Source of the DNA: Verrucomicrobiota bacterium
GTDB taxonomy: Bacteria > Verrucomicrobiota > Verrucomicrobiia > Opitutales > Opitutaceae
Direction of reading: 5' to 3'
Length of the DNA: 34,568 nucleotides
NCBI GenBank assembly: GCA_003641745.1
Contig: QNAI01000018.1
Location: 1 to 34,568, forward strand
The notes under the pieces: generated by a model
Databases searched by the model: none
What the model was told of the DNA's origin: nothing
What the model saw: the letters and a program-made list of their open reading frames with translations, nothing else
Shown here: positions 19,688 to 34,568 of the stretch, piece after piece
How the letters are laid out: every line of letters starts with the position of its first letter
How positions within the stretch are numbered: position 1 is the first letter of the stretch
Position numbers and translations under genes: made by a program

Positions 19688-21001
19688 ATGAAGCAAACAC
19701 CGCAACCTTACCTGATCGGCGTGGCCAACGTCGATGTCACCCCTCCGGCCGGATCCTCCCTGGCCGGTTTCGCCGCACGCATCGAACCATCAAACGACGT
19801 CTACCTGCCCCTTCGCTGCGTCATCACGGCCATCACGGATAGAGCCCGATCTAGCACGGTCCTTATCGTTTCGATCGAATGGCTGGGGTTCTACGACAAC
19901 ACGGATCATGTCCGCCGCCTGATTTCAACCGCCACCGGCATCCCAACCGACCATATCCTACTCTGCGGAACACATACCCACTGCGGTCCGCCCATGCGAA
20001 AGAAGATCGACGAAGACCGGCACGGCAGCATCGATCTCGAGTTCATTGACCGGGTGTTCGGCGACATCGCCCGGGCGTCGGCTGAGGCGGTCGCATCGCA
20101 GAAACCGACCGCAGTCAGAGCCGTTTCGGGATGGTGCGGATTCGCCCACTCCAGAAGGAAACCGGACGGAGAAGGAGGCATCGAGTGGATGCCGACCCTC
20201 GATGCGCCCCATGATCACACCGTCCCCGTCATCATTTTTGAAGACGATAAGGGAACTCCGATTCATGTCCTGTTCAGCTATGCATGCCACCCGACCTCAA
20301 GCGGGCCCATTCTCCAGATCGGCGGGGATTACCCGGGATTCGCGGCCAGAAAGATCGAGGAAACATTCAATTGTTCGTCCGCCTTCCTCCTGGGATGTGC
20401 CGGTGACCAGAAGCCGTATATCCCGGACCCCGGGCGGCCCGCGTTCCCCATGTATCCGATTGAGGCCATTCGCGGGCTCGGTGAACAACTCGCGGCGAGC
20501 GTTGCGAACGCCATTCGATTCGGAAACAGCGTACCGGTGACCGGTCCGTTGACCGTGCTCAGCCGGAAGCTGATCCTCCGAAACGAGGTCATGCCACGCC
20601 AGGTCTATGAGTCATCACTCAAGGCCGAGCAGTTGTTTGAACAACGGTGGGCCAGGCACACTCTCGCCATCCTTGATCGCGATAAATCACCCGACCGTGA
20701 CCTTCCCTTCGAGATTCAGGCACTGCAATTCGGCCAGGACCTCCTTCTGGTGGCGTTGGCCGGCGAGATGAGCGCCGAATACGGGCTGCGCCTGGTCCGG
20801 GAACTCAGCCACCGATTCTCCTTTGTCTGGCCCATCGCCTACGCGAATGAAATTGTCGGCTACGTTCCGGTCGAGCGGCAGTATTCCGAAGGTGGATACG
20901 AGGTCCTGGTCAATATGCAATACCTCCTGAGGCCGGGCCCCCTGGAAAGGGACTCGGAAGAGAGGATATTCGACACGATCGGGGAGATTCTGGTCGACTG
21001 A
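19688..21001 (+). CDS. Neutral/alkaline ceramidase-like hydrolase, second copy
   Basis: This 437-residue protein is a paralogue of the gene at 59-1444. It has VANVDVTPPAGSSLAGF at the start, GTHTHCGPP with zinc-ligand candidates His96 and His98, a CHPTSSGP motif, LGCAGDQKP in place of the GALGDINP loop, and C-terminal NEIVGYVPVERQYSEGGYE, where conserved Tyr residues of the family occur. There is no signal peptide, so a cytoplasmic location is likely. It closes the plus-strand catabolic-looking run that starts with the symporter. Substrate unknown; the family name does not imply ceramide hydrolysis. Confidence 0.85.
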   Translation: MKQTPQPYLIGVANVDVTPPAGSSLAGFAARIEPSNDVYLPLRCVITAITDRARSSTVLIVSIEWLGFYDNTDHVRRLISTATGIPTDHILLCGTHTHCGPPMRKKIDEDRHGSIDLEFIDRVFGDIARASAEAVASQKPTAVRAVSGWCGFAHSRRKPDGEGGIEWMPTLDAPHDHTVPVIIFEDDKGTPIHVLFSYACHPTSSGPILQIGGDYPGFAARKIEETFNCSSAFLLGCAGDQKPYIPDPGRPAFPMYPIEAIRGLGEQLAASVANAIRFGNSVPVTGPLTVLSRKLILRNEVMPRQVYESSLKAEQLFEQRWARHTLAILDRDKSPDRDLPFEIQALQFGQDLLLVALAGEMSAEYGLRLVRELSHRFSFVWPIAYANEIVGYVPVERQYSEGGYEVLVNMQYLLRPGPLERDSEERIFDTIGEILVD

Positions 21002-21103: not shown

Positions 21104-22411
21104 TCAGTTCTCCATATTGTAGGCGCTCTCTCCGTGCGAAGCCTGGTCAAGGCCGGTCTCCTCGTCTTCGGGATCCATCCGCAGGCCCGTGATCGCCTTG
21201 ACCGCGAGGACAATCACTGCAGTCAGCCCGGCCGACCAGATCACAGTCGCACCGACCCCGGTCACCTGGGTGATCAATTGCGAACCCATGGAGTCCACAC
21301 CTCTTCCACCGAAGGCACTCACTCCGAAAACGGCGACGAGAACAGAACCCACAATCCCGCCCACTCCGTGAACGGCGAATACGTCGAGGCTGTCATCGAT
21401 TTTGAGCCGGTTCTTGATGAATCCGCACATAATGTAACAGACCAATCCGGCCAGGAGACCCAGGAGAGCGGCGCCCAAGGGGCCAACATTTCCGGAAGCC
21501 GGTGTAATCGTCGCCAATCCGGCAACCATCCCGGTAACGATACCAACCAGCCCCGGCTTTCCTGTTTTCAGCCATTCAACCGTCATCCAAGTCAGGCTCG
21601 CCACCGCGGCGGCGATATGTGTGACCAGCATGGTCATGCCGGCCGATCCATTCGCCGCGATCTGACTTCCGGCATTGAAGCCAAACCAACCCACCCAGAG
21701 CATGGAGGCGCCGATCATGACCAGTCCGGGACTGTGCGGCGGGTGCAGCCGTTTTGGAAATCCGTTTCTCGGCCCGAGCATGGCCGCCAGAACCAACGCC
21801 GAAATCCCGGCCGTGGTATGAACGACGATGCCGCCGGCAAGATCGATCACACCCCGATCCATCATCCACCCGCCTCCCCAGACCCAATGGGCGACCGGCA
21901 CATAGACCAGAATCAGCCACAGGGTGGTGAAGAGCAGGACCGCGGAGAATTTAATCCGTTCAACGACCGAACCGATGATAAGGCCGGGTGTGATGATGGC
22001 GAAAGTCATCTGGAACATCAAAAAAACTGTTTCCGGAAACGAGTTCCCGTTGAGTTCGTCGGTTCCAATTCCTCCAAGAAGGAAGTGCTTCAGGTCCCCG
22101 ATCCAGGTATTGCCTTCGGAAAACGCCAAGCTGTAAAGCCCGACCACCCAGAGAATTGAGGCCAGGCACGCGATGGCAAAACATTGCATCAGAACACTGA
22201 GCAGGTTCTTGGCCCTGACCAGCCCCCCGTAAAACAGCGCCAATCCGGGCAGGGTCATAAAGAGGACCAGCACCGTCGCCGTGAGCATCCATGCAGTATC
22301 GCCCGAATCGAGGACCACGGCCGGAGTTGCATCCTGAGCCAAAGCCGAACTGGCGGCCAGAAGACACGGAATCAGAAGAGTAATGAGACGACGTAGAGTG
22401 GATGATGTCAT
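21104..22411 (-). CDS. amt: Ammonium transporter, Amt family
   Basis: The 435-residue protein has a signal-peptide-like N-terminus and eleven transmembrane helices typical of Amt/AmtB. The pore twin histidines are recognisable in IVVHTTAG (His198) and FAVHGVGG (His348). The AHWVWGGGW segment and the conserved C-terminal GMRxDPEDEETGLDxxxHGExAY tail are also present, except that GL replaces GM. ATG 22411 is chosen; the frame is open to 22540, but the upstream stretch is not Amt-like. No glnK (PII) gene, the usual neighbour, lies beside it, and no clear sigma-54 promoter was seen upstream. It imports ammonium or ammonia across the inner membrane. Confidence 0.95.
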   Translation of the reverse strand: MTSSTLRRLITLLIPCLLAASSALAQDATPAVVLDSGDTAWMLTATVLVLFMTLPGLALFYGGLVRAKNLLSVLMQCFAIACLASILWVVGLYSLAFSEGNTWIGDLKHFLLGGIGTDELNGNSFPETVFLMFQMTFAIITPGLIIGSVVERIKFSAVLLFTTLWLILVYVPVAHWVWGGGWMMDRGVIDLAGGIVVHTTAGISALVLAAMLGPRNGFPKRLHPPHSPGLVMIGASMLWVGWFGFNAGSQIAANGSAGMTMLVTHIAAAVASLTWMTVEWLKTGKPGLVGIVTGMVAGLATITPASGNVGPLGAALLGLLAGLVCYIMCGFIKNRLKIDDSLDVFAVHGVGGIVGSVLVAVFGVSAFGGRGVDSMGSQLITQVTGVGATVIWSAGLTAVIVLAVKAITGLRMDPEDEETGLDQASHGESAYNMEN

Positions 22412-22740: not shown

Positions 22741-22980
22741 TCACCCCCGCGCCAGGATCGCACCGACCACACTGATTGGGATTGCAAGAAGGAAAAGCAG
22801 GAAGGGTCTCCTGGTCTCCTCCCAGTTCATCATCACGAAGACGAAAAGCATGAAGGGAACCAGGAGGCAGCCAAATCCCCAGGCAAAGGACTGCTGGAAA
22901 GCTCTGCCCAGGATGATGATCGCAAACAGCGCACCGATCGATGCACCTGCAAAAACCAGGATGATTCCAAGAATTTCCAT
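22741..22980 (-). CDS. Small three-helix membrane protein
   Basis: This 79-residue protein has three hydrophobic stretches: GIILVFAGASIGALFAIII, then GFGCLLVPFMLFVFVMM and FLLFLLAIPISVVGAIL. A charged loop NWEETRRP lies between the second and third. No family was recognised. ATG 22980 is preferred over an in-frame upstream TTG-like start at 23001 that overlaps the previous stop. It follows the delta-60 protein stop by 17 nt and is probably the last gene of that operon, which suggests a role linked to the surface protein, but this is inference. Confidence 0.65.
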   Translation of the reverse strand: MEILGIILVFAGASIGALFAIIILGRAFQQSFAWGFGCLLVPFMLFVFVMMNWEETRRPFLLFLLAIPISVVGAILARG

Positions 22981-22997
22981 CGATCCATCCACCGGGA

Positions 22998-25900
22998 TCA
23001 AGGCGCCAGATTCACGAGGTAAACTTCAATGATCGTCTCACCTTCCGCTCCATTCTCGCTTCGAGCCTGGGCGGTATAGGCACCAGGTTCGACCACCATG
23101 AGCACGACGCTGTCGCGACCCGTCGGATCGATCCTGAATGCCCCGGCCAGATCCTGGGCCCCGACCAGGTCCGCCTGGGCAAAGGCCGGATGAACCGGAT
23201 CCACCCCCAGGGGGACAGCCCAGTCGTCATTCGCGGCAAGCAGACGCCCGCTTGCATCATAAACGTGCAAAACAGGATCATCGATGGCATCACTCACGCC
23301 GAACTCGGTCAGGCCCGGGCCTATGGCCCTTACCAGAATCAATGCGTTATTCTCGCCACCGACAATGAACCCGCCCGTTGCGACACCAGAGCCGGATGAA
23401 ACCGGACCTCTCGAGGACAGATTCACCAATCGGTTACCCGATTGGGTCGAATCATCCGAGGCGTCGTAAATCTCCGCCAGAATAACACCCGGCACACCGT
23501 CCGTATCCGAAAGCCGGATCGTGTAGACGCCCGGTTCGAGATCGACCTGAATGGCCGAATCCATGCTGTCAGGTGACAGCGGAAAAGCACCCACCTCCAC
23601 GAAGACTTCGGTCAGTGCCCGGTCACCACCCCATCCGCTGTTCTCAGCCACCAGCCCCCCCTCTGAGTCGAGGATCTGAAGGCGGGGCAAACCGGCATGG
23701 TCGTCGATGCCGAAAACGGCCAGGCCCGGCCCGATCGCTCGCACCAGGAGCCGCCTGGCCTCTGACCCCGTAACCGAAAAACCGGCAATGAAAACATCGC
23801 CCGCGCCCAGAAAAACTCGGGATGACAGGTTCAGAAATGCCGCGTCTGCACCGAGCGTGCTGACGTCCCAATCAATCGAAGCCACGTCCAGACTCGCGCC
23901 ACCAGCACCGTTGCCGGTCGAGCCTCCTGAATAATCCGAGCCCGAATCTCCCGACGAATCGGCATGGTCCGATGAAGTGTCCTCATCAGTCGCATCCAAG
24001 CTGCCGCCGCCCGCCGGACCCGTCCCTGCCGGGCCCGAGGCAACAGAACCGTAGAACTGAGCGACCGAACGGATGAATCCACTGGAGCTGCCCGTCGAGG
24101 TCGGCACCACGCCCTGGGCTCTGATGAAGTAGTATTCATCCGCCGGAAACGCCGTATCGACGTCAATCTCCCATCCACTACCCTGAGGAATCCGCTCACC
24201 CGTACCGAGCGCGGTCCAGTTCCGTCCGTCTCCCGAGCTCGCAAAGATTACAGAGGTAAGTTCCGGCGATGCCCCTTCCCGTATCCAAGTGATCCGGGTT
24301 CGACTGGAACTGACACTCATATTGTCGATCGCCGCGACATTGGTTCCCAATCGCGCCGTCAGGTACCTGGGATCATTTCCTACCTGGGTGAAATTTCCTG
24401 CGATGAAGGGTTGGCCATTCTCCAGCAGAATGACCGAGAAAACGTCGCCGTCGGTGTCGGCCTGGAAGGACGCGTCCAGCGATCCATCCGCATTCAAACG
24501 GGCAATGCCCGCCCGGGACTGGCCTCCGATTTCGGTGAACGAGCCGCCGACCAGAATCCGGCCGTCAGCTTGAAGCGCAACCGCATGCACCTCACCATTG
24601 GGTATCGGACTGAAACTCCCGTCCACCGTCCCATCCGGTCGAATACGAGCGAGGTAAGGTCGACTGGTCCCGCCGATCTCCGAAAATGCCCCGGCGACCA
24701 CCACCATTCCGTCGGGCTGTAACGCAAGGGCAACAACCGATCCGTCAGCCTCGGTTCCGTAGGAAGAATCTAGCGTACCATCAGAATTCAAGCGTGCCAT
24801 ACGGCGCTGGGTGAGTCCTCCAAGCTGGGTAAATTCGCCGCCGATCACGATCTTTCCATCCGGCTGGACAGCGACTGCCCTCACCGGTCCGTTTGCATCG
24901 GGATCGAACCCTTCATCGAGGGCTCCGGATCGCTCGAATCGCGCGATGCGATTCCGCACTTCACCTGCAATCAGCGAGAATCCGCCGGTCACCAGGACCC
25001 GGCCATCGGGTTGAAGGGCCAGGCCATCGACCGGTCGGTCCGGCCGCGGGTCGAAAGATGAATCGGGCGTCCCGTCAGCGTTCACTCGAGCCAGATTGCG
25101 AACCTGCGCACCGCTGACATCCGAAAAATTGCCGCCGAAGAAGATGTCGGACTGCGGGTTGAGGAAGTGAAAACTCCCACCCACCACGATCGTACCGTCG
25201 GCGCGGCCCAGGACGGCGAACACCGAGTTGTCGGCATTGGGGTTGAATCCTGTATCAAGCGAACCGTCTGCGTTCACACGGGCCAGGCGATTGCGGGGGG
25301 TGCGAAAGGACTGACCATTTGGCGCCAGACCGGTGAAGGATCCGCCGATCAGGATCCTGCCATCCGACTCGATGTCGATCGAGTTGACTGCGGAATTCGC
25401 ACTCGGATCGAAGTCATCCACGCTGCCGTCGGCATTGAACCGGGCGATATTATGACGGGCAATCAGATCGTCGGATCCGGATCCGGTTGCTGCGACCGAA
25501 AAGAAACTGCCGCCAATCACGTATTTGCCATCGACCTGTTCCTTGATCGCAAAAACGGGGCCTCCAGCCTGAGCCGAAAACTCCTCGTCGAGCGCTCCGG
25601 TTGAAAGAACCCGCGCCAGTCTGAAACGGGAAACGGCCGCACCGCCGTTGGGCGAGAGCAAATTGAACACCCCGCCGATCAGGATCTTGCCGTCCGCCTG
25701 CCAGAGAATGGCGTATACCTGGTCGTTGGGGCTCGGATCGAAACCCGCATCGACTGTGCCGTCGGTGTTGAGACGGGCGACCCGACTGCGTGCCGTCGGC
25801 GATGTGGCGCCGTTCGGACTCAGCGACGAAAAGTTTCCGCCAATCAGGATCTTGCCGTCACCCTGGACCGCAATCGTCCTCACTTGAGAGCTGACATTCG

Positions 25901-28892
25901 GGTCGAAGGCCGTGTCGAGGGAGCCGTCTGAACTCAACCGCGCCATCCGATTCCGCGCGAAGCCATTGATTGTCGTGAACAAGCCGCCGATCAGGATCCT
26001 GCCGTCGGCTTGCAGGGCGACAGCCGAAACCGAAGCATTGAGAATCGGTTTGAAGGTGGAGTCGAGGGAGCCGTCGGTATTGAACCGGGCCAGGTAGGGG
26101 CCGATCTGCAGGTTGCCATCAGTAAAGGAACCGGCGACGAGAAGACGACCATCGCTCTGCTCCACGATCGCACTGACCGCGCCGAGTAACTCGGATCCAT
26201 CCGTGGCGTTGGGTGCATCGTGGTAGGATCCATCCGGATCCAACCAGGCAACCAGGCGCCCCCGTTCGACATCGAAGGTGGTGTCCGGTCGTATCAGGAT
26301 GGCATGAACCGCCCCGTTGGTCTGGCTGGCGAAGGACCGGTCGACATTCCCATCCGAAAACATACGGGCGATATTGCGATTCTCGCTGCCCCCCAGGGAT
26401 TCAAAGGATCCTCCGATCAGAATACTTCCGTCGCCCTGTACAGCGAGGGAGGAAATCCGGCTGCCTGACGGATTGCTTGAGCGGACAATGTAATCGCTAT
26501 CCAACACGTCCTCCCCGGTCAACCGGACGACTTTCCCGACCACGGTTCCTTCATCACCGGTGAATGAAGTCATCCCGCTGAAACCGCCCGCGATAAGCAC
26601 CCCTCCGTCACCTTCCGGCAGGAATCCAAGAGCCGCATCGTTCGCACCCAGATTCAAGGTTGAATCGACGCCGCCGTCGCTGTTCAGGCGCGCGATACGT
26701 TCACGATACACGATTGTTTCCGCGCCGTTGGACTGGAAATACAAGAAATCGCCGCCTACCAGAATCCTTCCATCCGACATGATGTGGATGGCACGGACAC
26801 GACTGTCGGGATTCGGATCAAATCCGGGATCCACCTTCCCGTCAGAATTGAGGCGGGCGAGGAAATTCCGGGTTGTTGTCACTTCCCCACCATTGGGTTG
26901 AAAACTCGTGAATCGGCCGCCGAGCAGGATCTTGCCGTCGCTCTGCAGAGCGATTATTTCGATCGAACTGTTGGCGTTGGGATCGAAGTCAACATCCAGC
27001 GAGCCGTCTTCGTTGAGTCGAGCGATGAAGTTGCGGGTTGCAGTCGCCCCACCTCCGGATGGAATGACGAATGTGAAGAGTCCGCCGACCAGGAGTTTCC
27101 CGTCGGCCTGCAGGCTCAGCGCATTTACACCCGCACTGGTTCCGGCCGTGTAACCATCATCGACCGTTCCATCGGCATTCAGACGTGCCAGATAACTACG
27201 CTGAAAGAATGTTTCACCATCGTTGGGCGATAGATTGGTGAAATCCCCCCCGATCATCAGCTTCCCGTCAGGCAGGAGCACGACGGCTGCAACCGGCGCA
27301 TTGGGATTCGGACGAAATCCCGAATCAAGCGAACCGTCGGTATTGATTCGGGCGATTCCCCCGGCTACTGTTTCGTTGACTCTGGAGAATTCCCCGACGA
27401 TGACGATCCTGCCGTCGGATTGCCTGACAGCCGAAAGAATCCGACCATTCGTACTCGCAGTGAAGGTCTCATCCACGATCCCGTTCGAGTCGATTCTCGC
27501 CAGGTTTTGCCGGGTGACGCCGCCCATGCTGGAGAACAGGCCTGCAACAATGACCTTGCCATCGGCCTCCCTGACCAGGGTCGTGACCTCACCCCCGGGA
27601 TCCGATTCAAATGCGGAATCCAATGTTCCATCGGAATACAGCCGCGCCGCCCGATTGCGAATAGTCGAACCCGGCGACGACGCGGGTCTGAAACGGGTAA
27701 AGGCACCACCCGTAACGATCGATCCGTCGCTCTGCACCGCAATCGTGTAGACCGTGTAGTTGGGTGTGGGTGAAAAGGAGGTATCCAATGTTCCTTCAGG
27801 ATTCAAGCGCCCGAGATACCGCCGGGCCAAGGAGGTGAATGAGCCCGAGGGAAGGAAAGATGTAAAAGCTCCCCCCACCAGAATTCTGCCATCTTTCTGG
27901 ATTGCCAACGCACCCACGTTCGCGTTTGCGTTCGGTCTGAAATCCAAGTCGACCTGATCGTCAGCCCGGATGCGCGCGATCGAAATCCGATCATACACTG
28001 AACCTGAAACCCCTTGACGAATTGATCGAAAATCCCCGCCGATGACCAGCGATCCGTCCGCCTGGAACACCATGCACATCACCCGATTGTCGGCGACGAT
28101 GTTGAAGGAGGCATCGAGAGAGCCATCCACATTGAGGCGGGCGATCCGGCTGGTGTCAGTTACGTTTGATCCACCGTCCGGCTGCATCTGAGTGAATCCT
28201 CCCCCGACGATCAATCGACCGTCAGCCTGGAGACCGAGCGAATAGACGATATTGTTTGGATTTGGCGCAAAGCCGGAATCCACGCTGCCCCCGGCATTGA
28301 CACGCGCCAGATGATTTCGTGCGACGGGATTCGAGGTTCCGGCCGGCTGCAATTGGTTGAAGTCGCCCCCCAGCACGATCTTTCCATCCGACTGGACGAC
28401 GAGGGCATGGACCTGCGGCGTCTGCATGCCACCCAGGTTCGGGTCGAATCCCGTATCGAGTGTGCCGTCAACATTGAGGCGGGCAATTCCGTTCCTGACC
28501 ACGTGATTGCCCGTCCGATTGGGATCGACGGTGGTGAAACGTCCTCCAACCACGATTCTTCCGTCCGGCTGAAGTGCCAACGCGGTCACCGTGCCATCGA
28601 AATTTGGATCAAACCCGGAATCGAGAGTACCGTCGGGCAGGTAACGGGCAAGATTGTGCCGGCCGATCGCGGCACCGGCCTCGGGTCTGACCGAACTGAA
28701 AGCACCACCGATCAGAATCCTGCCGTCATCTTGAATCAGGACCACATAGGCCACACCGTCGAGGTTCGGGTTGAATCCGCCATGGTCGGATTGGGCGGCC
28801 GCCTGGTTGGGCGGAAGCGCCGCCAGCAGGAAGGCACCGATTGATGAAAGGACGCGGGCCTTTCGGAAAACCTTTGAGATGTTTGAAAACAT
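22998..28892 (-). CDS. Giant delta-60 repeat surface protein with tandem C-terminal domains
   Basis: This 1964-residue secreted protein begins with a signal peptide (after MFSNISKVFRKARVLSS, cut near NQAAAQ). Residues ~35-1510 are about 28 delta-60 repeats of the form ARLNxDGSLDxxF-x-PNxxxxV-x5-QxDGKIxIGGxF, which build a beta-propeller-like structure. Most units are ~60 residues because of a PNGG-type loop; the last five are ~50. One unit near residue 875 is decayed, and another near 1250 is partly duplicated. Next comes a ~100-residue segment that includes an ITWIREGASPELTSVIF strand, a Gly/Ser/Asp linker (~1615-1670), and two copies of a ~130-residue domain marked by LVRAIGPGL (about 1680-1810 and 1817-1963). 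No PEP-CTERM or other known sorting tail was seen. It follows a barrel-like gene by 34 nt and likely decorates the cell surface. Confidence 0.9.
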   Translation of the reverse strand: MFSNISKVFRKARVLSSIGAFLLAALPPNQAAAQSDHGGFNPNLDGVAYVVLIQDDGRILIGGAFSSVRPEAGAAIGRHNLARYLPDGTLDSGFDPNFDGTVTALALQPDGRIVVGGRFTTVDPNRTGNHVVRNGIARLNVDGTLDTGFDPNLGGMQTPQVHALVVQSDGKIVLGGDFNQLQPAGTSNPVARNHLARVNAGGSVDSGFAPNPNNIVYSLGLQADGRLIVGGGFTQMQPDGGSNVTDTSRIARLNVDGSLDASFNIVADNRVMCMVFQADGSLVIGGDFRSIRQGVSGSVYDRISIARIRADDQVDLDFRPNANANVGALAIQKDGRILVGGAFTSFLPSGSFTSLARRYLGRLNPEGTLDTSFSPTPNYTVYTIAVQSDGSIVTGGAFTRFRPASSPGSTIRNRAARLYSDGTLDSAFESDPGGEVTTLVREADGKVIVAGLFSSMGGVTRQNLARIDSNGIVDETFTASTNGRILSAVRQSDGRIVIVGEFSRVNETVAGGIARINTDGSLDSGFRPNPNAPVAAVVLLPDGKLMIGGDFTNLSPNDGETFFQRSYLARLNADGTVDDGYTAGTSAGVNALSLQADGKLLVGGLFTFVIPSGGGATATRNFIARLNEDGSLDVDFDPNANSSIEIIALQSDGKILLGGRFTSFQPNGGEVTTTRNFLARLNSDGKVDPGFDPNPDSRVRAIHIMSDGRILVGGDFLYFQSNGAETIVYRERIARLNSDGGVDSTLNLGANDAALGFLPEGDGGVLIAGGFSGMTSFTGDEGTVVGKVVRLTGEDVLDSDYIVRSSNPSGSRISSLAVQGDGSILIGGSFESLGGSENRNIARMFSDGNVDRSFASQTNGAVHAILIRPDTTFDVERGRLVAWLDPDGSYHDAPNATDGSELLGAVSAIVEQSDGRLLVAGSFTDGNLQIGPYLARFNTDGSLDSTFKPILNASVSAVALQADGRILIGGLFTTINGFARNRMARLSSDGSLDTAFDPNVSSQVRTIAVQGDGKILIGGNFSSLSPNGATSPTARSRVARLNTDGTVDAGFDPSPNDQVYAILWQADGKILIGGVFNLLSPNGGAAVSRFRLARVLSTGALDEEFSAQAGGPVFAIKEQVDGKYVIGGSFFSVAATGSGSDDLIARHNIARFNADGSVDDFDPSANSAVNSIDIESDGRILIGGSFTGLAPNGQSFRTPRNRLARVNADGSLDTGFNPNADNSVFAVLGRADGTIVVGGSFHFLNPQSDIFFGGNFSDVSGAQVRNLARVNADGTPDSSFDPRPDRPVDGLALQPDGRVLVTGGFSLIAGEVRNRIARFERSGALDEGFDPDANGPVRAVAVQPDGKIVIGGEFTQLGGLTQRRMARLNSDGTLDSSYGTEADGSVVALALQPDGMVVVAGAFSEIGGTSRPYLARIRPDGTVDGSFSPIPNGEVHAVALQADGRILVGGSFTEIGGQSRAGIARLNADGSLDASFQADTDGDVFSVILLENGQPFIAGNFTQVGNDPRYLTARLGTNVAAIDNMSVSSSRTRITWIREGASPELTSVIFASSGDGRNWTALGTGERIPQGSGWEIDVDTAFPADEYYFIRAQGVVPTSTGSSSGFIRSVAQFYGSVASGPAGTGPAGGGSLDATDEDTSSDHADSSGDSGSDYSGGSTGNGAGGASLDVASIDWDVSTLGADAAFLNLSSRVFLGAGDVFIAGFSVTGSEARRLLVRAIGPGLAVFGIDDHAGLPRLQILDSEGGLVAENSGWGGDRALTEVFVEVGAFPLSPDSMDSAIQVDLEPGVYTIRLSDTDGVPGVILAEIYDASDDSTQSGNRLVNLSSRGPVSSGSGVATGGFIVGGENNALILVRAIGPGLTEFGVSDAIDDPVLHVYDASGRLLAANDDWAVPLGVDPVHPAFAQADLVGAQDLAGAFRIDPTGRDSVVLMVVEPGAYTAQARSENGAEGETIIEVYLVNLAP

Positions 28893-28926
28893 GTTGATAT
28901 CCGGAAAATTGCTCGAAAAAGATCGC

Positions 28927-30057
28927 CTAGAAATGCGTGGTGATGCCGATGCGGAAGCCAACGGAAGTGGAAAGTTCCAGTTCCGCCGTACGGTTGTTCA
29001 GAGCAATCCTCATATCGGTCGACGCATTCTGGTAGGTGACGCCGACATATAGCCCGGTCACCGGGGTGATCCAGAACTCGGCATCAAGGGTGCCGTAGTA
29101 ACCAATGTAGTCGTACCTTTCCGTATCTCCGTCGACGATCGCTGAAATTGTTCTATCCTCACTGATGCGTGCGCGTTCGTCATAGCTGAAGGTCAGCCCC
29201 AGAACAGTTGCGGATACACCGGCGCTGGCTCGAAAAGAAAGCCGATCAATGGGTCGCCAGCGAAACCATGGCCCGAAGCGAAAAGAGAGAAAAGTCCCGT
29301 CGATTTCCCAATAACCGTCGACATCCGCTCCATCCGGGGTGCTGGTGGACGTACGACTGTAAGGCAGGTCCTGGAGCAGAACCGATGTATCCACCGAAAA
29401 GGTGGACGTCGTACCATCTGAATTGGTGATCGTTATGAATTCCGCCGACGGAGAAGAGAACGGGCCGTCCGGCGCAGTCGCCCCGAGGAGCGAGTAGACA
29501 TCCCTCGTCGCATTCAGGGTTGCCTTGATGGTCTCCCGATACTTCACGTTCAGATCGTTGAGCCCGAACCCAAAACTGATTCCCCAGTTGACCGGACCGG
29601 TCATTCCGAAGCCACCGGTCCCATAATCCGCCAGACGCAATGCAAACTCCATGTCCAGCCCGGCCGAACCGGGGGCATCCGCGCTCACCGTGTTGCCGGC
29701 CCCGTCCGTGGAAAAGTCGTTGAAGGCGATCCCGGATCCATCCTCCAGAATCTGCGAAGAATTGTCGTATCTCCAACGATTCGTGCGCCCGTCCGATGGT
29801 ATCTTTTCACCGTCATCCGTAAAACGCACGTCGCTAAGAACAGCTCCGTCGCTATACCGCCGGTTCATGACCGTGGTGGTGTCACCGAGAACGGAATTCG
29901 AAGGTATGGTGCCGACGTTTCCAAACGTGACAGTCGCCTGCCCGGCAAATCGGGCACCCAGGAGAAACTGCAGGTTGCTTCGGTCGGTCTGCGCCAATAA
30001 CAGGGAGGGCGCACTGACCAGAAGTAGCAGCGTGAGAGGAAGGAGCTTCGATCGCAT
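28927..30057 (-). CDS. Outer-membrane beta-barrel-like protein
   Basis: The 376-residue precursor has a signal peptide (MRSKLLPLTLLLLVSAPSLLLAQ) and then alternating amphipathic strands rich in aromatic and Gly residues. The final strand ends LELSTSVGFRIGITTHF with a terminal Phe, a hallmark of outer-membrane barrels inserted by the BAM complex. Examples of strands are GPVNWGISFGFGLN, FLSFRFGPWFRWRP and GTLDAEFWITPVTGLYVGV. No specific family was recognised. It is 34 nt upstream of the delta-60 protein gene on the same strand, so the two are probably co-transcribed and may form a barrel/passenger or barrel/surface-protein pair. Confidence 0.75.
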   Translation of the reverse strand: MRSKLLPLTLLLLVSAPSLLLAQTDRSNLQFLLGARFAGQATVTFGNVGTIPSNSVLGDTTTVMNRRYSDGAVLSDVRFTDDGEKIPSDGRTNRWRYDNSSQILEDGSGIAFNDFSTDGAGNTVSADAPGSAGLDMEFALRLADYGTGGFGMTGPVNWGISFGFGLNDLNVKYRETIKATLNATRDVYSLLGATAPDGPFSSPSAEFITITNSDGTTSTFSVDTSVLLQDLPYSRTSTSTPDGADVDGYWEIDGTFLSFRFGPWFRWRPIDRLSFRASAGVSATVLGLTFSYDERARISEDRTISAIVDGDTERYDYIGYYGTLDAEFWITPVTGLYVGVTYQNASTDMRIALNNRTAELELSTSVGFRIGITTHF

Positions 30058-32984: not shown

Positions 32985-34568
32985 TCACTGCAGCAGCCCG
33001 GGCAGGTAAAGACTCAAACCCGGGATGTAGGTGATCAGGAGAACGCCGAACGCGAGCAGCAGCAGCAAGGGGATCACCGATCGGATGACCGTCGGAACGC
33101 TCTTGCCGAACCGATAGGACGACAGAAAGAGATTCATCCCGACCGGCGGGGTCAGAAATCCCAATTCCAGGTTCGCCAGGAAGATGATCCCGAGATGCAG
33201 GGGATTGATTCCAAAGGCATGGGCCACGGGTACGATGAGAGGAACGACCACGATGATCGCGGAGTAGATATCCATCAGGCATCCGACCACGATGAGAAAT
33301 GCGTTCAGGGCCAGCAGAAATACCAAAGGCGATTTTATCGTCTCGGTTGCCCATTCAACGGCGAGATCAGGGATCTGCGCATCCACCAGGTAGTTGGTGA
33401 ACCCCATGGCCACACCCAGAATGAGCAGGACACCGCCGACAAGAAGCCCACACTCCCCCATCACTCTTGGAAGGTCGCGGAAAAACTTCAGATCGCGATA
33501 GAGAAAGGTCTCGACTGCAAAGGCATAGAACGCCGTCAGCGCCGCGGCTTCGACCGGAGTGGCATATCCACCGAACAGGGAAACCATGGCCACCACCGGA
33601 AGAAGCAGTTCCCACTTCGCCTCCCATAGCGCCGCCGCCGCTTCCCGGCCGTCGAAACGTCTTGCGTTCGCAGCCACCCGCGGTGCCCGGAGAATCCCCC
33701 ACCCGGCCGTGAGACCCACCAGCAGCAATCCGGGTATGATCCCGCCGACAAAGAGAGCACCAAGTTCAACATGCGAACCCGCGTTGGTCGCCACGACCGC
33801 ATAGAGGATCAGAGGCAGGCAGGGCGGAAAGAGAATGCCGAGTGAACCCGATGCTGTGAGCAGGCCGATACCATCGCGTTCGCGGATATTTGCCGCGGTC
33901 AGGACCGGAAGCAAAAGGCCCCCGAGGGCCAATATGGTGACACCTGAGGCACCGGTGAATGTGGTGAAGAAAGCGCAGACCAGGACGGCAACCAGGGCCG
34001 GTCCGCCTCGAATGCCACCCACCACAGCCTTGAAAACGCGAATCAGTCGCCTTGATGCCCCGCCTTCGGCCAGAAAATACCCGGCCAGGGTAAAGAGAGG
34101 TATGGCGGCCAGGGACGGGTTGACCACCAGCCGATAGTGATCGAGCGCCAATGACGCGATCGGGCTGTATTCGCTCCAGAACAGGACCAGGGCCGCACCG
34201 CCCAGGCCGACAAATATCGGGGCTCCGAGAACAACAGCTCCCACCACCACGGCCAGTCCGGCCAAGGCCAGGTACTCCGGATCGATCGGGGGAAATAACC
34301 CGAGTGCGATCAGCGCGACCGCCAGCAGGGCCGCAATCGACCGGCCTTTCCAGGAATCGCTCGACTGCCACCAGAGCCGACAGGCGATCAATGCAAAGCC
34401 CAGCGGGATGACCAGTTGTACCGTCCATGTCGGCAGATCGAATACCAAGGTCTTTCCCAATTGCCGGGTGCTCACCACGAACTGCAACGATCCGACCGTC
34501 AGAAAGATGGAAATACCCGCCGCGATACCATGGGAAACAAATTTTGCGGCCTGCTTCCAACGCCCTTC
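32985..34568 (-). CDS. Fused TRAP transporter permease DctQ-DctM, 5' end missing
   Basis: The frame is open from the stop at 32985 to the right edge of the window (at least 527 codons), so the gene begins outside. The first ~70 residues seen read as the end of a DctQ small permease: SIFLTVGSLQFVVSTRQLGK followed by LPTWTVQLVIPLGFALIACRLWW. These lead into a full DctM large permease with GLGGAALVLF, GYFLAEGGASRRL, FTTFTGASGVTILALGG and a C-terminal FLTPPVGMNLF. Fused DctQM permeases are known in this family. They work with a periplasmic DctP protein, which must be outside the window if present. An apparent TTG start at 34487 is internal. Confidence 0.9.
   Translation of the reverse strand, partial: EGRWKQAAKFVSHGIAAGISIFLTVGSLQFVVSTRQLGKTLVFDLPTWTVQLVIPLGFALIACRLWWQSSDSWKGRSIAALLAVALIALGLFPPIDPEYLALAGLAVVVGAVVLGAPIFVGLGGAALVLFWSEYSPIASLALDHYRLVVNPSLAAIPLFTLAGYFLAEGGASRRLIRVFKAVVGGIRGGPALVAVLVCAFFTTFTGASGVTILALGGLLLPVLTAANIRERDGIGLLTASGSLGILFPPCLPLILYAVVATNAGSHVELGALFVGGIIPGLLLVGLTAGWGILRAPRVAANARRFDGREAAAALWEAKWELLLPVVAMVSLFGGYATPVEAAALTAFYAFAVETFLYRDLKFFRDLPRVMGECGLLVGGVLLILGVAMGFTNYLVDAQIPDLAVEWATETIKSPLVFLLALNAFLIVVGCLMDIYSAIIVVVPLIVPVAHAFGINPLHLGIIFLANLELGFLTPPVGMNLFLSSYRFGKSVPTVIRSVIPLLLLLAFGVLLITYIPGLSLYLPGLLQ

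Follow-up and report, generated by a model that had tools for sequence, protein, structure and literature searches.

A conserved barrel and delta-60 propeller gene pair in Opitutaceae, whose giant protein ends in a double domain that may serve as a shared sorting tag

In Bacteroidota, the gene of a PorP/SprF barrel adjoins that of a giant SprB-type repeat adhesin, which carries a C-terminal sorting domain. GlyGly-CTERM and PEP-CTERM are sorting signals of another build, with a motif, a helix and an Arg cluster at the end of the protein; for GlyGly-CTERM, homologues with exchanged tails have served as evidence (PMC3237569). DUF5122, the family of the delta-60 repeats, has been treated as a modelled repeat family (PMC8078820), and literature searches for 'delta-60 repeat' and for an Opitutaceae C-terminal sorting domain found no paper in the collection searched. 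How does a locus with a barrel gene beside a giant delta-60 gene compare with these systems? The window analysed here is a stretch of 34,568 nucleotides (contig QNAI01000018.1, assembly GCA_003641745.1) from a Verrucomicrobiota bacterium of the family Opitutaceae.

Three genes lie on the minus strand of the window with gaps of 34 and 17 nt, as the preliminary description had reported, and its calls of a barrel with a terminal Phe and of a repeat protein of about 200 kDa held as well. The barrel gene (28927..30057) encodes 376 aa with a signal peptide, and the ORF list, AlphaFold2 and VIA-align together describe an 8-stranded barrel of the OmpA/OmpW type with two long loops and a C-terminal Phe (...GITTHF). 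Its stop is separated by the 34 nt from the ATG at 28892, where the gene of the giant delta-60 (DUF5122) protein begins (22998..28892; ORFs, Pfam and NCBIfam). This protein has 1964 aa, a mass of 203 kDa, a pI of 4.5 and a Sec signal peptide that ends ...AAA-Q, and its delta-60 matches are above the cut-offs. After the 17-nt gap comes a small gene (22741..22980), which from its ATG encodes a 79-aa three-helix membrane protein with three hydrophobic stretches; from an alternative start, the TTG at 23001, the product would have 86 aa and the frame would overlap the delta-60 stop. Between positions 22300 and 30300 no promoter-like match was found, and terminator-like matches were at chance level. 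Upstream, the pair borders on a gene for a TRAP T-component lipoprotein (PF16811, 30261-31175), with a DctM permease gene (32985-34568) on the other strand at a distance of two genes from it. Elsewhere in the window, two genes (59-1444 and 19688-21001) have ceramidase-like N-terminal regions (PF04734), the match of the second being just below the curated cut-off.

Are the barrel and the giant protein a pair, or chance neighbours? Of 95 related genomes, 47 have relatives of the barrel, and almost all of these belong to the same GTDB family, identified as Opitutaceae from the records that bear names. A profile built from the paired barrels and run against 252 Opitutaceae genomes showed a clean break, with 11 genomes at 470 bits or more and the next at 290 bits. 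Each of the 11 barrels of the paired type, from 8 genera, is followed directly on its own strand by a delta-60 gene, whereas this holds for none of the 18 next-best barrels whose locus was fetched, and therefore the pair is real and not a product of chance. The two genes are 3-102 nt apart across the loci read. Phylogenies are of a piece with this: the seven paired copies then known form one group in a tree of 48 barrels (support 94/85) and lie on one side of a branch in a tree of 22 long delta-60 genes (100/99). The pair is vertically inherited. It is present in Opitutaceae bacterium EW11 (L166), a cultivated organism. The remaining barrels of the family stand by themselves, many close to a coiled-coil gene, an MFS-like gene or alaS, and two genomes (G020 and G039) have one barrel of each kind.

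The delta-60 gene of about 1950 aa is also found without such a barrel alongside, in 15 relatives in the delta-60 tree. As a separate observation, this gene without a barrel is often near uvrC, a redoxin-like gene, an esterase-like gene and a gene with ...VTVYTDRAVVTRTA (L128-L141, L147), a setting that makes up a second stable locus in the relatives. The genome of the window itself has three further delta-60 proteins. Two of them (L072, L073) have no barrel alongside as far as their contigs extend; the locus of the third (L071, contig C230) is cut by the contig end, and the C-terminal domains of this protein are 56% identical to those of the window protein.

What, then, of the small gene? The preliminary description had taken all three genes for one operon and proposed a search for the trio in relatives. 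The barrel and the delta-60 gene came out of that search as a tight unit, conserved side by side in 11 species of 8 genera; the trio did not. Homologues of the 79-aa gene are few and all in unrelated loci, the gene is absent downstream of the pair at every other paired locus, and in G029 the pair and the small-gene homologue are on different contigs. The three-gene unit is rejected for lack of a conserved small gene next to the pair, and the 79-aa gene is a bystander, a chance neighbour of it.

The AlphaFold2 model of the barrel, built on six sequences, has a mean pLDDT of 77, and its top VIA-align matches are 8-stranded barrels, namely OprF, OmpA, OmpW, NspA and a designed barrel (Z 15-16.6, rmsd 2.1-3.2 Å). 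The window barrel is thus predicted to share the fold of these small barrels. Unlike OmpA, OmpW and OprF, it matches no sequence family (the searches of Pfam and NCBIfam gave none, the best Pfam hit being to an unrelated family at E 0.1), it has two long conserved loops, and it has no periplasmic OmpA domain.

The giant protein is matched by DUF5122 (PF17164) over 26 stretches in Pfam (E 1e-231, 749 bits) and by delta-60 (TIGR02608) over 24 stretches in NCBIfam (541 bits), both above the curated cut-offs. Coordinates and periodicity give about 28 delta-60 repeats (24465..28733, minus strand), mostly 49-57 aa apart. In the model, the last seven of them form one 7-bladed propeller (VIA-align Z 31 and rmsd 2.2 Å to a designed 7-bladed propeller); extrapolating from this single modelled propeller, the whole protein likely has about four. 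The propellers are followed on the same strand by a single beta-rich domain, whose boundaries, taken from the sequence and the modelled strands, are approximate (24057..24335), and by a Ser/Gly/Asp-rich linker predicted to be disordered, with pLDDT under 50 (23841..24056). The protein then closes with two copies of one domain, the first at residues 1685-1815 (23448..23840), a beta-sandwich in the model, and the second at residues 1821-1963 (23004..23432), which in the alignment ends one residue before the stop. The model of the C-terminal part was built on four sequences, and its VIA-align matches were filled by propellers. With repeats above the curated cut-offs and a propeller fold, the protein resembles other DUF5122/delta-60 proteins. 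What sets the window subgroup apart from them is that about 28 repeats are combined with a double domain at the C-terminus and, for 11 species, with a barrel gene alongside.

The closing domain, about 130 aa long and present as two tandem copies at the C-terminal end of the giant protein, is not confined to it. A search of the same genome brought up many further large proteins with it. Of the 30 carriers, 26 have exactly two copies, which stop 0-3 residues short of the frame end (in one case the frame is cut by a contig end), and the remaining four have one recognised copy each. The N-terminal parts of the carriers vary, with chondroitinase B, Ig arrays, PQQ propellers and InlB-like repeats among them, and many of the carriers in this genome begin with a signal peptide, as judged by eye. 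In two complete relatives the domain was counted 101 and 71 times, and in 27 of 27 complete proteins sampled from them there are exactly two copies at the very end. Across the phylum the domain was found in 10 of 194 genomes surveyed, nine of them of the same family. At least nine domain hits were present in 22 of 24 genomes with a delta-60 orthologue of about 1950 aa, compared with 11 of 37 genomes that have no such orthologue (p 1.4e-6, a value that ignores phylogeny; two of the hits come from the delta-60 gene itself). The presence of the barrel does not go along with the domain system (p 0.15), and the barrel was rejected as a marker of it.

Is the domain already described? Pfam has no model for it and gave one weak domain match, to PPC (0.13); no sequence of a solved structure matched. 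NCBIfam gave weak matches to FDP_fam (NF038127) in 10 of 18 members, the best at 1.6e-6, and the window copy scores 15.2 bits, below the curated cut-off of 29 bits. The weak profile similarity and the beta-sandwich are points in common with these FDP/PPC-like families, from which the window domain differs in its score below the cut-off and in the strict double arrangement at the protein end. As far as profile searches can tell, the double domain is new to Pfam, with this weak NCBIfam relative alone.

Some lineages have lost the double domain or supplemented it. The delta-60 copies of three species of genus g40 (G039, G255 and G297; loci L078, L283 and L284) have weakened C-terminal domains followed by an added tail, in which a Gly-rich segment precedes a hydrophobic helix and an Arg cluster; by eye this tail is GlyGly-CTERM-like, and it is seen in this genus only. 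The one such tail run against NCBIfam, that of G039, was not recognised, and the whole genomes of G039 and G255 have two domain hits only. The delta-60 orthologue of G023 (L127) has lost both domains and has another beta-rich C-terminal part in their place, for which NCBIfam has no match. By eye, this replacement resembles part of a neighbour protein at another of the loci (L163, 18042-21062).

How close are the described systems? As with PorP/SprF and SprB, a barrel gene lies in the window beside that of a giant repeat protein with a candidate C-terminal sorting domain. Unlike there, the barrel is small, 8-stranded and encoded upstream, and the C-terminal domain matches no T9SS model: among 18 copies run against NCBIfam for Por_Secre_tail or another T9SS sorting domain, a single one gave a hit, at E 0.14. 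The search for SprA had no match in 95 relatives, and the control genomes gave none either. The resemblance to GlyGly-CTERM and PEP-CTERM is that a C-terminal module is common to many unrelated exported proteins per genome and that delta-60 orthologues swap one tail for another (module comparison with PMC3237569). The window module differs in being two folded domains of about 130 aa each, with no membrane helix or Arg cluster; the protein ends ...IIEVYLVNLAP, and the PEP-CTERM/GlyGly-CTERM motif with its helix and Arg cluster is absent from it. Exosortase was considered as a replacement or partner of the double domain and set aside, as the medians (2 vs 3 hits, p 0.058) show no clear relation. 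It is probably not required for double-domain proteins, because three domain-rich genomes (G018, G037 and G054) have no exosortase match. Two-partner secretion of the TpsB/TpsA type was rejected (no POTRA or TPS domain in Pfam or NCBIfam), and so was an autotransporter, the C-terminal region being modelled as two beta-sandwich domains and no barrel, with no Pfam autotransporter match.

What could the barrel be doing beside the giant protein? The preliminary description saw in the locus a dedicated secretion unit, and a barrel gene that comes first and is tightly and conservedly linked to its neighbour would suit a channel for the giant protein. Barrels of the 8-stranded OmpA/OmpW type, however, have no protein-wide pore and are not protein-conducting channels, so a predicted fold of this type makes a dedicated channel unlikely. 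Pfam, moreover, shows no POTRA or other secretion-channel domain in the barrel, and the 15 relatives mentioned above keep the delta-60 gene of about 1950 aa with no such barrel beside it. Dedicated secretion is not supported, and a channel role for the barrel appears very improbable. Alternatively, the two proteins might merely be co-regulated and never touch, the linkage reflecting shared expression. Genes for a histidine kinase and a LytTR response regulator adjoin the pair, mostly divergently, in 7 of the 11 species (G033, G039, G255, G297, G020, G268 and G450; loci L163, L077, L078, L079, L283, L284 and L286), their domains being confirmed for L163 (kinase and LytTR) and, for the kinase alone, L079. 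Yet in the window, G013 and G029 the pair has no such two-component genes next to it, and barrel and delta-60 gene stay together all the same, and the short spacing at all loci read also speaks against mere co-regulation, which is rather unlikely on balance.

The double domain poses a similar choice. It looks like an export-signal-like tag, because of the position of the domain, its copy number, the variety of the cargo and the exchange of tails. A serious rival is that it serves to bind a ligand, be it glycans, matrix or LPS of the cell itself, and that the proteins are exported by a conventional route, for instance type II secretion. Among the Foldseek matches of the double domain are the tandem collagen-binding domains of ColG, a clostridial collagenase (5iku), and the weak FDP and PPC matches are both to extracellular families. 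Binding modules usually vary in number and position, and a count of two at the terminus in 26 of 30 proteins of this genome and in every complete protein sampled from the two relatives fits them poorly. Ligand binding may be the true role, although it is judged somewhat unlikely.

The reading preferred here, for which the chances are about even, is that of a two-gene operon in which the delta-60 protein is a cargo of a putative shared C-terminal sorting/anchoring pathway and the barrel is a co-made outer-membrane partner. Both proteins would reach the periplasm by Sec, as their signal peptides suggest. There, a putative general outer-membrane sorting/anchoring machinery, common to some 30-50 other proteins per genome, would recognise the double C-terminal domain, and the propellers would be displayed on the cell surface, where the co-made barrel may act as docking site or co-receptor for the propeller protein. 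Surface display is the most likely role of the giant protein. Export probably follows a general route and not one dedicated to the operon, because the double domain is common to dozens of unrelated proteins in the genome. More tentatively, and at somewhat below even chances, Opitutaceae may have an undescribed outer-membrane sorting/anchoring pathway that recognises a C-terminal tandem domain pair on 30-50 exported proteins per genome, the giant protein being one cargo; lineages that drop the pathway would lose the domains or add another tail.

Little is known of the way in which Verrucomicrobiota bring large proteins to the cell surface. The double domain, strict in its arrangement and carried by dozens of unrelated proteins, amounts to a ready catalogue of probable cargo and gives a direct starting point in the search for the machinery, and the barrel-propeller pair adds a conserved outer-membrane partner.
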